Below are positions 5,507-45,786 of a DNA stretch of 54,947 bases, in pieces. This DNA is from Microcella sp. (GTDB taxonomy: Bacteria; Actinomycetota; Actinomycetes; Actinomycetales; Microbacteriaceae), in the NCBI GenBank assembly GCA_030158585.1, contig JAOASR010000067.1:2328-57274 (forward strand). Reading direction: 5' to 3'. Made by a program: the position numbers and the translations under genes. Each line of letters begins with the position of its first letter. The stretch's first letter is position 1. A model generated the notes under the pieces. That model did not search any database. It was not told the origin of the DNA and worked only from the letters and a program-made list of their open reading frames with translations.

Positions 5507-5552
5507 TCGGGGCTCTGCCGCGACGGCACCTCATGCTGGCCAACGCGCCACA

Positions 5553-5612
5553 CCGCGCTGTTCCGGGCAACCAGGACTGACGAGGGCGCCCGGTGTGCCC
5601 GAAACAGCGCGG
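5553..5612. terminator. Large bidirectional hairpin between convergent genes
   Basis: A 17-nt arm at 5553-5569 pairs with 5596-5612 at 16 of 17 positions around a 26-nt loop. With one mismatch and a bulge the pairing extends outward to about 5545-5619. It lies between the 5096 gene (+) and hemA (-). Confidence 0.7.
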
Positions 5613-5666
5613 AGTGCGCCGGGGCACCGACGGGGCGGGGGGCAGTGAGGCGCGAGAGGCAGGCAG

Positions 5667-29534: not shown

Positions 29535-29589
29535 CTTCGACAAGTACGGACGCGGCGAACACTCTTCACTCGTTCCGTACTTGTCGAAG
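29535..29589. terminator. 16-bp perfect stem between convergent genes
   Basis: CTTCGACAAGTACGGA (29535-29550) pairs perfectly with 29574-29589 around a 23-nt loop. It lies between putA (+) and the GntR gene (-), so it can stop both. The CTTCGACAAG/CTTGTCGAAG core also resembles a dispersed palindrome I recall from related genomes. Confidence 0.75.
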
Positions 29590-42482: not shown

Positions 42483-43370
42483 CTACTTCTTCCCGAGCGC
42501 CGCGAACTTCGCGATCGACAGCGGCACGAACACGATCAGCAGCACGGCGATGCCGATGAGCACGGTGAGGATGGGGTTCTGCGCCGTCCACGCGTCGCCG
42601 ACGGGCGTGCCGGCGGGCACGTTGCCGAAGAGCTCGCGGGCCGACTGCACGAGGGCCGAGACGGGGTTCCACTCCGAGAAGATGCGCAGCGGCGTGGGCA
42701 GGTTCTCGGTCGGCACGAACGCGTTCGAGATGAACGTGAGCGGGAACAGCACGAGGAACGAGACGTTGTTGATGATCTCGGGGCTGCGCACGCTCATGCC
42801 GAGGAACGCCATGAGCCACGAGAACGCGTACGCGAACAGCAGCAGCAGGGCGACTCCGGCAAGGAACCCGCCGAGCGACGACTCGACCCGCCAACCGACG
42901 AGCCAGCCGGTACCCATCATGACGAGCATCGACAGGCCGTTGATGACGAGGTCGCCGTTGGTGCGGCCGACGAGCACGGCGGCGCCGTTCATCGGCAGCG
43001 TGCGGAACCGGTCGATGATGCCGTCCTTGAGATCCTGCGCCATCGCCGAGCCCGAGTAGGTCGAGCCGAACACGACGGTCTGGGCGAAGATGCCCGCCAT
43101 GAGGAATGACGTGTAGCCGCCGGGCACGTCGATCGCGGCGCCGAAGACGTAGGTGAACAGCAGCACGAACATGATCGGCTGCAGCAGCGTGAACACGAGG
43201 ATGTCGGGCACGCGGATGATCTTCATGAGGTTGCGGCGCGTGGCGATCCACCCGTCGCTGAGGAACCTCCCGATCGCCGTCCCCGGCTCCGGCTGCAGGG
43301 TCGCGGATGCTCGGCTCGCGCCGACGCCGCCGCTCGCGCCGGGCATCCCGCTCGCGCCGACGGTGCTCAT
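42483..43370 (-). CDS. ABC-2 type transporter permease (DrrB-like)
   Basis: 295 residues with six transmembrane helices. Typical DrrB features: RNLMKIIRVPDILVFTLLQPIMFVLLFTYVFG, the GIFAQTVVFGSTYSGSAMAQDLKDGIIDRFRTLPM segment, and FVPTENLPTPLRIFSEWNPVSALVQSARELFGN. The start overlaps the ATPase stop (ATGA). Pairs with the ATPase to export an unknown hydrophobic compound. Confidence 0.92.
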   Translation of the reverse strand: MSTVGASGMPGASGGVGASRASATLQPEPGTAIGRFLSDGWIATRRNLMKIIRVPDILVFTLLQPIMFVLLFTYVFGAAIDVPGGYTSFLMAGIFAQTVVFGSTYSGSAMAQDLKDGIIDRFRTLPMNGAAVLVGRTNGDLVINGLSMLVMMGTGWLVGWRVESSLGGFLAGVALLLLFAYAFSWLMAFLGMSVRSPEIINNVSFLVLFPLTFISNAFVPTENLPTPLRIFSEWNPVSALVQSARELFGNVPAGTPVGDAWTAQNPILTVLIGIAVLLIVFVPLSIAKFAALGKK

Positions 43371-44350
43371 GCCGCGCCCTTCTCGTTCTCGGCCGCATCC
43401 TCTGCCGCGTGCCCGGTGAGCTGCAGGAAGACGTCGTCGAGCGTCGGCCTGCGCATGCCCGCGTCGTGCAGAGAGATGCCCGCGGCGGTGACCTCGCCGA
43501 CGATGCGACTGAGGGCCGTCGGCCCGTCGTCGACCGGCACGACCCACGTCTTGCTCTCGTTCGACGGCACCGCCTCGCCCGTGCCGTGGCGCTGCAGGAT
43601 GCCGCGCACGGTCTCAGTCTCATCGGCGTCGACGAGGGTGAGCGCGACGCGCTGCCCGCCGACCGAGGCCTTGAGCTCGTCGGCCGTGCCCTCGGCGATC
43701 ACGCGGCCCTCGTCGATGACCGAGATCGAGTCGGCGAGACGATCGGCCTCTTCGAGATACTGCGTCGTAAGCAGCACGGTCGTGCCCTCGCTCACGAGGC
43801 TCTCGATGACATCCCACAGCGCGAGCCGACTGCGCGGGTCGAGGCCCGTGGTCGGCTCGTCGAGGAAGAGCACCGGAGGGTTGATCACGAGCGCACCCGC
43901 GAGGTCGATGCGCCGCCGCATGCCGCCCGAGAAGCCCTTGACCACGCGGTTCTGCGCCTCGACGAGGTCGAAGAGCTCGATGAGTTCGCGCGCCCTCTCT
44001 TTCGCCCGCTTGGCGCCCAGGTGGTAGAGCCGGCCCACCATCTCGAGGTTCTCGAAGCCCGTGAGGTTCTCGTCGACGGCGGCGTACTGGCCGCTCGCGC
44101 CGATCATGCGCCGCACGCGATCGGGGTCGGCGAGCACGTCGACCCCGTCGATCACCGCCGAGCCCGAGTCGGGGCTGATGAGGGTCGTGAGCACCTTGAC
44201 GGTGGTCGTCTTGCCGGCGCCGTTCGGGCCGAGCAGGGCGGTGACGGTTCCCTGCGGAACCTGCAGCGAAAGCCCGTCGAGGGCGCGCACGACGGGCGCC
44301 CCCTTGGGCGTGTAGGTCTTGACGAGATCGCTCGCCTCGATGAAGGGCAT
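43367..44350 (-). CDS. Daunorubicin-resistance-type ABC transporter ATPase (DrrA-like)
   Basis: 327 residues from ATG 44350, chosen because TAGCAT lies 7 nt upstream (leaderless); an upstream in-frame start at 44380 would lie across that promoter. Walker A GPNGAGKTT, Q-loop GQYAAVDENLTG, signature FSGGMRRRI, Walker B PVLFLDEPTTGLD and a C-terminal DrrA-type extension (TLDDVFLQLTGH). Drives the permease encoded next. Confidence 0.93.
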   Translation of the reverse strand: MPFIEASDLVKTYTPKGAPVVRALDGLSLQVPQGTVTALLGPNGAGKTTTVKVLTTLISPDSGSAVIDGVDVLADPDRVRRMIGASGQYAAVDENLTGFENLEMVGRLYHLGAKRAKERARELIELFDLVEAQNRVVKGFSGGMRRRIDLAGALVINPPVLFLDEPTTGLDPRSRLALWDVIESLVSEGTTVLLTTQYLEEADRLADSISVIDEGRVIAEGTADELKASVGGQRVALTLVDADETETVRGILQRHGTGEAVPSNESKTWVVPVDDGPTALSRIVGEVTAAGISLHDAGMRRPTLDDVFLQLTGHAAEDAAENEKGAA

Positions 44351-44357
44351 GCGCGGG

Positions 44358-44363
44358 ATGCTA
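44358..44363 (-). promoter_or_regulatory. -10 element of the leaderless drrA-like gene
   Basis: TAGCAT on the minus strand, then 7 nt to the ATG at 44350. Confidence 0.6.
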
Positions 44364-44431
44364 CTCCTGGCCGGCGACATCGCGGGACCCCGCCGAGCGC
44401 CTCGACTCGCGGCGCTCCTGCCCGAAGCGGC

Positions 44432-44491
44432 GTCTATCGGTCACTCGTTGCGGGGCCTCTCGCCCGACCCCGCAACGCGCGACCGATAGAC
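44432..44491. repeat. 60-nt palindromic element between divergent genes
   Basis: Arms 44432-44455 and 44468-44491 match at 22 of 24 positions (GTCTATCGGTC... and CGTTGCGGGG...) around a 12-nt loop. Because both flanking genes point away, this cannot serve as their terminator. Confidence 0.85.
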
Positions 44492-44500
44492 GGGGAAAGT

Positions 44501-44543
44501 GGCAGGTGGGCAGGTGGGCAGGTGTGCGGGCGCGCGGGCGCGC
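44501..44543 (+). repeat. Two adjoining 8-bp tandem repeats
   Basis: GGCAGGTG three times (44501-44524), then after one T GCGGGCGC twice (44526-44541), ending 26 bp before the -10 of the 44581 gene. In the -35/upstream region of that promoter. Confidence 0.8.
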
Positions 44544-44568
44544 AGGCCTGGCCGTCAGGGGCCGCGAG

Positions 44569-44574
44569 TAGCGT
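44569..44574 (+). promoter_or_regulatory. -10 element of the leaderless acyl-CoA dehydrogenase-like gene
   Basis: TAGCGT, then 6 nt to the ATG at 44581. Confidence 0.65.
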
Positions 44575-44580
44575 GGAAGC

Positions 44581-45786
44581 ATGACCACCGAGCCGCGCAC
44601 CGTGCTCACTCCCGAGCTCCTGCAGAGCATCCGCGATCGGGCCGGTGACTACGACGCACGCAACGCGTTCTTCTTCGACGACCTCGATGACCTGCGCGCC
44701 GCCGGCTACCTGCGCCCGCGCAGCCTCACCGCCGCGGCGCGCGATCAGCGGCTGCTTGCGGCGCACGCTCCGGCGACGGCGCTCGGCATGACGATGCACC
44801 TCGTCTGGATGGGCGTCGCGCGCGACCTCGCCGCCGCGGGCGATGAGAGCCTGCGCTGGGTGCACGACGACTGCGCGGCGGGCGAGCTCTTCGCCTTCGC
44901 GATCAGCGAGCAGGGAAACGACCGCGTCATGACCGACTCGGTCACGCGGGTCGACCGCGTCGACCCCGGCACTGACGGTCGCGGCGCGGGCTGGTCGTTC
45001 ACCGGCACGAAGATCTTCACGAGCCTGAGCCCCGCGTGGACAAGACTCGGCACACTCGGTCTCCATACCCCGGCCGGCAACGAGCCCACCGACGGCACAG
45101 CCCCCCAGATCATCCACGGCTTCTTCACCCGCACCGCCCCCGTCTCGACCCCCGGCCGCCTCGAGCTGCGCCCCACTCCCGGCATCACCCTCACCCCCGA
45201 CTGGGACACCCTCGGCATGCGCGCCACCCAGAGCTGGACGACCCGGCTCGAGCAGGCCTTCATCCCCGACGAGCGCGTGTCGCGCATCCTGCCCGTCGGC
45301 CCGACGCTCGACCCGTTCCTCCTCGCGATCTCGGCCAACTTCCTCACGCTCATGGCCGCCGTCTACGCGGGGCTCGCCGACCGCGCCCTCGAGCTCGCCG
45401 TCGAGTCGGCGCACCGGCGCACGAGTCTCAAAAACGCGGGGGCGCCCCAGTCGGCCGACCCCGACGTCCGCTGGCGCGTGGCGGATGCCGCGCTCGCCCT
45501 CGACGCGCTGGCCCCCCAGATCGAGGCTGTCTGCCGCGATCGCGACGCCGGTGTCGACCGGGGTGCGCGGTGGTTCCGCGACCTGGCGGGGCTCAAGCAG
45601 CGCGCCGTCGTCACCGCGCGCGAGGTCGTCGACGAGTGCATGCACATCGCCGGGGGAGGGGCCTATCGCACGTCGGCCGAGCTCAGCCGCCTGCAGCGCG
45701 ACGTGCTCGCCGGCATCTACCACCCGAGCGACCCCGAGAGCGTGCACTCCACGATCGCCGCCGACCTGCTGGGGCCGTTGCCGTGA
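44581..45786 (+). CDS. Acyl-CoA dehydrogenase-family flavoprotein
   Basis: 401 residues. Three-part ACAD fold: a helical N-terminus (~1-95), a middle beta-domain with FAFAISEQGN, WSFTGTKIFTSLSPAWTRLGTL and DWDTLGMRATQSW (the substrate/FAD loop region), and a C-terminal four-helix domain ending in HIAGGGAYRTSAELSRLQRDV. It could be a dehydrogenase or a flavin monooxygenase of this fold; sequence alone does not decide. GTGA overlap with the next gene. Leaderless-type start. Confidence 0.82.
   Translation: MTTEPRTVLTPELLQSIRDRAGDYDARNAFFFDDLDDLRAAGYLRPRSLTAAARDQRLLAAHAPATALGMTMHLVWMGVARDLAAAGDESLRWVHDDCAAGELFAFAISEQGNDRVMTDSVTRVDRVDPGTDGRGAGWSFTGTKIFTSLSPAWTRLGTLGLHTPAGNEPTDGTAPQIIHGFFTRTAPVSTPGRLELRPTPGITLTPDWDTLGMRATQSWTTRLEQAFIPDERVSRILPVGPTLDPFLLAISANFLTLMAAVYAGLADRALELAVESAHRRTSLKNAGAPQSADPDVRWRVADAALALDALAPQIEAVCRDRDAGVDRGARWFRDLAGLKQRAVVTAREVVDECMHIAGGGAYRTSAELSRLQRDVLAGIYHPSDPESVHSTIAADLLGPLP

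Follow-up and report, generated by a model that had tools for sequence, protein, structure and literature searches.

The palindrome at 44431–44492 of the window, by which we mean the whole 54,947-nt stretch of Microcella sp. DNA analysed here, is with near certainty a copy of a dispersed, REP-like repeat family. We are confident that the palindromes are paired with a gene for a nuclease-like protein, which in the full unit stands between two of them. The window element itself is best explained as a solo, non-autonomous copy, probably spread by the cognate nuclease.

The palindrome and its neighbours

The first-pass annotation had pointed to a 60-nt palindrome with no obvious function between two divergent leaderless promoters. 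Its geometry was as described: two 24-nt arms (44432–44455 and 44468–44491) with two mismatches enclose a 12-nt loop (44456–44467). The loop is variable among copies, and the inner part of the right arm, GCGCGACC, differs from the family consensus AACTGACC. The palindrome had been called the strongest fold in the window among those without an obvious job, and it ranked first among the 24 inverted repeats that a repeat finder reported there. The fold energies were -44.7 kcal/mol on the plus strand and -53.0 kcal/mol on the minus strand (z -5.5 and -8.0, respectively), and none of 200 shuffles folded equally well on either strand. Given this result and the nine copies detected in the source genome, a chance origin was rejected.

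The ends and flanks were analysed in 36 elements chosen from the family. The base directly outside the palindrome was C on the left in 30 of the 36 members and G on the right in 32, and beyond this one base per side the members showed no clear conservation and no further dyad. The element is therefore best drawn as 62 bp, from 44431 to 44492 (C + 60 nt + G), a solo copy of the GTCTATCGGTCACTCGTTGC family; neither the element nor its arms and loop are assigned to a strand.

The neighbours are those of the earlier annotation. A gene for a DrrA-like ABC transporter ATPase (43370–44350, minus strand; PF00005, PF13732) starts at 44350, with an alternative in-frame ATG at 44380, and a gene for an acyl-CoA dehydrogenase (44581–45786, plus strand; PF08028, PF00441) lies on the other side, so that the palindrome is upstream of both. 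TAnCnT motifs were found a few bases before the starts on both sides in 12 aligned species; their forms in the window are TAGCAT and TAGCGT, with variants in the other species. This recurrence would fit the divergent leaderless promoters that had been proposed.

A scan of 44300–44640 found no terminator-like and no sigma-70-like sites, and the window had no Rfam match at the gathering score. The case that would have undone the annotation, a plain terminator in the gap, was not borne out: there is no T-run, and no terminator site was found in the scanned region. Two readings of the palindrome were thus rejected, that of a terminator (no T-run, position upstream of both genes) and that of a known RNA (no Rfam match). 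Among the three functions originally offered, insertion of a repeat element was upheld. A regulatory site dedicated to this promoter pair is unlikely: all 12 aligned species have the motifs, and only two of them have the palindrome family. A structured RNA is possible and found no support.

A dispersed repeat family

The genome search suggested by the annotation was positive: further pairs of the half-site GTCTATCGGTC, spaced 60 nt, occur in the source genome, which is 82.6% complete in 188 contigs. The covariance model R2 detected nine copies there. Eight copies align ungapped across 60 columns, with about 20 outer nucleotides conserved in each arm and a variable centre. With the same model, 20 of the 26 genomes searched in the genus had a family match at E<=0.01, those of G018 (only at E 0.004) and G009 (only at 0.009) being possibly due to chance; in the taxonomic family, 25 of 299 genomes had one at E<=0.001. 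Copy tallies are lower bounds; a copy beside the partner gene in G040, for example, is absent from the genome-wide tally. Among named genomes, a strict full-length pattern matched one record, Microbacteriaceae bacterium UBA6152.

Gene context was determined for 37 chosen genus elements. By a simple gene caller, 32 of the 37 were intergenic in loci that are 84% coding, and these 32 were distributed between convergent (17), codirectional (10) and divergent (5) gene pairs. No convincing target-site duplication was found in 36 family members, the best of 1352 settings giving z 3.65. The insertion of a repeat element is supported, because there are nine copies in the source genome, the ends are sharp and the corresponding gap has no palindrome in 11 of 19 species.

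The arms covary. For this test, 45 elements (60 nt, one strand each, gene-flanking ones included) were picked from 110 strand-wise rows, and 13 pairs were changed on both sides among the 45 copies. The covariation score was 0.169 versus 0.095, with none of 500 shuffles as high. Another family in the class, described below, gave 15 pairs changed on both sides in 26 copies and a score of 0.296 versus 0.115, again with none of 500 shuffles as high; these 26 were chosen from 161 forward copies and have a length of 61 nt only. Pairings slid out of register scored far less in both sets. In this test, kinship among unstructured sequences can be enough to lift the score above that of shuffles, but it rarely (0–1%) lifts the count of changed pairs above theirs.

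The source genome also carries two other units of the same plan, that is, a gene between two palindromes. One is on contig C76 (L254), where a gene at about 64–957 on the minus strand lies between 72-nt palindromes at 4–75 and 1146–1217; a solo palindrome of this second family, CACACCGCGCTGTT(T/C)CGGGCA, is at 5549–5616 of the window. The other is on contig C149 (L125, 1246–2475) and has palindromes of the GAGTCGAGAAGTGG type, for which an exact pattern matched in G002 only. Its left palindrome has mismatches, and its right palindrome contains a G-run and a gap of N, which probably reflect a fault of sequencing or assembly in the hairpin. A palindrome of a third family, CTTCGACAAGTACGGA, is at 29535–29589 of the window, with two more copies in the source genome (L004, 1370–1434; L008, near 1404–1456). 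No strand is assigned to the two window palindromes.

Presence and absence at matching sites

A comparison of the gap between the drrA-like and acyl-CoA dehydrogenase genes in relatives had been proposed as a check. The gap could be located in 19 species; all 19 loci were scanned at a hairpin score >=11, and 12 of them were aligned. The present family was found in two of the 19 species, the source genome and G024; no palindrome at this score was found in 11. In the same gap, other palindromes of 44–59 nt were present in G003, G021, G006, G013, G014 and G017. Those of G003 (score 20) and G013 (26) matched best, among 21 units, the flanks of the unit in their own species, where shuffled palindromes reached a maximum of 15. 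For the palindrome of G017, its own unit came second (22) behind one of the same branch in G020 (24). Those of G006 and G014 scored only 15 with their own units, equal to the null maximum, and that of G021 did not match its own units (11). As a separate observation, the gap holds palindromes of about 45–60 nt and of several sequences in eight species, as though insertions favoured this place.

Other copies of the source genome were compared at their matching sites. The copy C162a is common to G024 and absent in G019; its site in G002 is not comparable, the downstream side being unaligned. The stretch with the copy C162b is missing in G024, G019 and G023, and G002 and G018 match one side only. 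The stretch with the copy on C55 is missing in G019 and G023 and is matched in G002. The whole C149 unit is missing in G018, where its flanks are joined. Matching sites thus differ in whether they hold a copy, through gain or loss. Beside the C162a copy there are also two other palindromic inserts, both missing in G024, and further palindromes, AATGAAGGGAG... and CCGAGTGCAGGAA..., lie on C162 close to the elements of L018 and L007.

Pairing with a partner gene

In several genus species, copies about 1.2 kb apart bracket one gene, and in other genera copies adjoin a homolog of it. REase_MTES_1575/DUF559 signatures were recognised in the encoded protein, though only weakly in some members. Homologs found with profile A3 are widespread. 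In the genus they occur in 24 of 26 genomes (E<=1e-5); for the taxonomic family the count is 189 of 259 (E<=1e-8), and for the class it is 188 of 296 (E<=1e-10), all three counts including distant members. Of the seven closest genus genes, five lie between two members of the palindrome family, with one weak hit (E 0.005) among the ten; another has a member on one side, and the last has only a hit at E 0.13. Outside the genus, seven of 67 elements, in six genera, lie within 250 nt of such a gene, against an approximate expectation of 0.1, for which the gene counts of G312 and G330 were assumed (4); this holds among the matches listed, with no more than 8 candidates scored per genome in the family-wide gene search. 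A second element in G112 is 310 nt from the gene and falls outside the 250-nt limit.

The source genome, at 82.6% completeness, yielded no gene of the subfamily that goes with the window palindrome. G024, which shares the site in the drrA gap, has only a gene fragment with a stop, next to a copy. Copies are present and no close gene was found in G002, G019 and G023, and G040 has the gene with one copy beside it. Since the gene of its own branch is undetected in the source genome, broken in G024 and likewise lacking as a close match in G002, G019 and G023, the window copy may be a relic. In four genus species (L091–L094), a unit is found at one syntenic place, where the neighbouring genes resemble, by eye, those of a Tad/CpaF ATPase and a ZIP-type transporter.

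Unit anatomy across the class

In other branches of the gene family, the palindromes at the two ends of the gene have a different sequence. This was examined in 55 loci, the best match per genome, three of 58 (L180, L204 and L215) having been removed because they were cut short; the set is biased to close homologs, because the best match of each genome was taken. A hairpin score >=13 was reached in 72 of 110 flanks versus nine of 109 ends of neighbouring genes (Fisher 1e-19, kinship ignored) and versus none of 110 shuffled flanks. The left and right flanks matched each other at a score >=16 in 18 of 27 family loci and 22 of 28 class loci (40/55, kinship ignored). Mismatched flank pairs reached this score in none of 81 cases in the family and three of 84 in the class (3/165).

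The plan of the unit is a palindrome of about 60 nt, some 80 nt, an ORF of about 300 aa, and the palindrome again on or near the stop codon. At a hairpin score >=11, both palindromes were present at 38 of the 55 genes, one at 10 and none at seven. With start codons set by a simple rule, the upstream palindrome mostly ends 31–170 nt before the start codon, two ending at 215–218; relative to the stop codon, the downstream palindrome mostly begins within -57 to +40, with three exceptions farther out. The median palindrome length is about 60 nt, and the proteins have 277–331 aa with one exception of 134.

The two palindromes of one unit matched at a score >=20 in 34 of 38 cases, and among units with less than 40% protein identity none of 839 pairs had a palindrome match at this score. 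Palindrome likeness tracks protein likeness (Mantel 0.25, p 0.001; kinship ignored) in the 48 loci tested, the other seven of the 55 being without a palindrome.

In one family of the class, a palindrome of about 61 nt, GTTGATCATGG...CCATGATCAAC, was found in 13 of 26 genomes searched, with up to 46 copies per genome when the gene-adjoining ones are counted. Among the 17 searched genomes of that family, copies were present in all 12 that have an A3 gene at E<1e-28 and in one of the five that have no such gene (Fisher 0.002, kinship ignored). The arrangement was also found in a named genome: on the plasmid NZ_CP012477.1 of Arthrobacter sp. ERGS1:01, the hypothetical protein WP_054009319.1 is bracketed by such palindromes. 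Among 72,556 records the palindrome occurred in that one alone, at 15 places (both strands may count). Two further named homologs, L256 and L258, have a palindrome on one side only.

The partner protein

A Pfam search of 30 partner proteins (E<=0.01) gave PF18741 in 24, PF04480 in 19 and PF13338 in one, with no other family; in particular, no Y1 transposase family was matched. E199, R203, D232, E243, G246 and H249 are invariant or nearly so, and the closest solved structure is the endonuclease-like protein 3hrl (E 0.0011). The C-terminal half fits a PD-(D/E)XK nuclease of the Vsr/DUF559 kind, with conserved acidic residues of apparently catalytic type. The N-terminal half resembles AbiEi in part of the set: the PADLOC model PDLC02228 matched 13 of the 30 proteins (best 9e-12) and another AbiEi model matched 10 (best 1e-13). 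A single-sequence structure model of the UBA6152 protein was set aside (mean pLDDT 33). A pattern search for viral relatives gave 70 stretches, of which none was confirmed.

Proposed mechanism and alternative explanations

AbiEi antitoxins are DNA-binding proteins that recognise inverted repeats in the promoter of their own genes, and PD-(D/E)XK enzymes hydrolyse DNA. Since the partner protein joins an AbiEi-like half to a Vsr/DUF559-like nuclease half, it may be a binder and nickase of its own palindromes. In the full unit, palindrome, about 80 nt, a single ORF of about 300 aa and palindrome follow one another. Binding of the palindrome, possibly in an extruded hairpin or cruciform form, would most likely fall to the AbiEi-like half, and nicking to the nuclease half. 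Because enzymes of this kind hydrolyse DNA, new insertions would need host repair, which we conjecture could let palindromes, and less often entire units, arise at further intergenic positions or be lost. We infer the movement, the binding, the cutting and its chemistry, as well as the donor of the window copy, from the sequences and their arrangement. That the partner protein drives the dispersal seems to us somewhat better than an even bet; the detail of nicking and repair is doubtful.

It is worth noting that there are other possible interpretations. The palindromes could be operators of an AbiEi-like regulator, which would repress its own gene through the flanking copies and control a regulon through the solo ones, the drrA-like and acyl-CoA dehydrogenase genes of the window included. 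The AbiEi models that match 13 and 10 of 30 proteins, the position of the window copy between divergent promoters and the location of one palindrome of each unit upstream of the gene are all consistent with this. The other palindrome of the unit, however, is on or near the stop codon, the intergenic genus copies lie between convergent genes in 17 of 32 cases and between divergent ones in only five, and the family is present in the drrA gap of two of 19 species. The invariant PD-(D/E)XK-like residues, moreover, suggest an enzyme. We therefore regard an operator function as unlikely.

The palindromes could also be REP or MITE elements of the usual sort, mobilised by some known transposase encoded elsewhere in the genome, with the DUF559 gene as a frequent passenger or target. 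This would account for their being short, mostly intergenic and dispersed, and for their likeness to REPs in the description of PMC3116915. A passenger, however, is not expected to bring its own matching pair of ends each time, and one gene family is found, with similar spacing, between palindromes of different families. Together with the lack of a target-site duplication in the 36 members, these points make this explanation quite unlikely.

If the hairpins served transcript ends, as bidirectional terminators or mRNA stabilisers spread by chance duplication, the bias to convergent pairs (17/32) and the strong folding of the window copy on both strands would be understandable; the missing T-run, the position of the window copy upstream of both genes and the pairing with one gene family, which would be left unexplained, make this very improbable. 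A homing-like selfish nuclease, which would cleave cruciforms or palindromes and propagate through recombinational repair, the solo copies not being transposed, agrees with the Vsr/DUF559-like signatures and with palindromes at both unit ends. It is just as improbable: the solo copies occupy various intergenic positions whose flanks differ, a pattern that homing, acting between homologous sites, would leave unexplained.

Comparison with known systems

Dispersal by the partner protein, the reading that we prefer, has its closest parallel in the REP/REPIN–RAYT systems. In both, short interspersed extragenic palindromes occur together with a cognate gene flanked by the same palindromes, several families are found per genome, and palindrome and protein change together. 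Here, however, the flanked gene encodes a Vsr/DUF559-like PD-(D/E)XK protein with no match to a Y1 HUH transposase, and unlike REPINs the copies are single hairpins of about 60 nt. REP/RAYT systems have a conserved guide tetranucleotide beside the hairpin, whereas only one base per side is conserved outside the hairpin in the family tested here; the stem interior may still hold a guide. Because the defining Y1 transposase is absent from the protein matches, we did not file the elements under REP/RAYT. In our reading, the system nevertheless works in the manner of REP/RAYT in the description of PMC3116915.

The unit also resembles a mobile element of another kind. IS200/IS605 elements have one gene between two hairpin ends and make no target-site duplication, and the same two features are seen here; the enzyme family is different, and solo hairpins can far outnumber gene units. 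As with MITEs, short non-autonomous copies match the ends of a larger gene-bearing unit; unlike in MITEs, no target-site duplication was found, and each end is a complete palindrome rather than half of a terminal inverted repeat. With the AbiE type IV toxin–antitoxin system the proteins may share an AbiEi-like N-terminal half, which PADLOC models recognise in part of them. In the present proteins, however, this half is fused to a nuclease-like half, and in L091–L094 the gene-flanking palindromes enclose just one predicted gene. By Pfam, the nuclease domain belongs to the same REase_MTES_1575/Vsr family as that treated in PMC3710099, where the account of the domain places it in giant multidomain proteins and does not mention palindromes.

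Implications

In searches of the open-access literature of PubMed Central we recognised no description of a palindrome/nuclease pairing, and the results suggest that actinobacteria commonly carry a mobile-element pair of a kind not yet described. More tentatively, at a little under even chances, this could be class-wide mobile DNA of the Actinomycetia, in which a fusion of Vsr-like PD-(D/E)XK and AbiEi-like parts would spread its own palindromic ends of about 60 bp as a non-HUH, REP-like system. The findings call for caution in naming such hairpins terminators or RNAs. If the pairing has the meaning proposed here, a large protein family now annotated as hypothetical, DUF559 or AbiEi-like would acquire a function, and an origin would be found for many intergenic hairpins that are now unexplained in actinobacteria. 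There would then be a second way to move short palindromes, with hydrolysing nucleases in place of HUH transposases.
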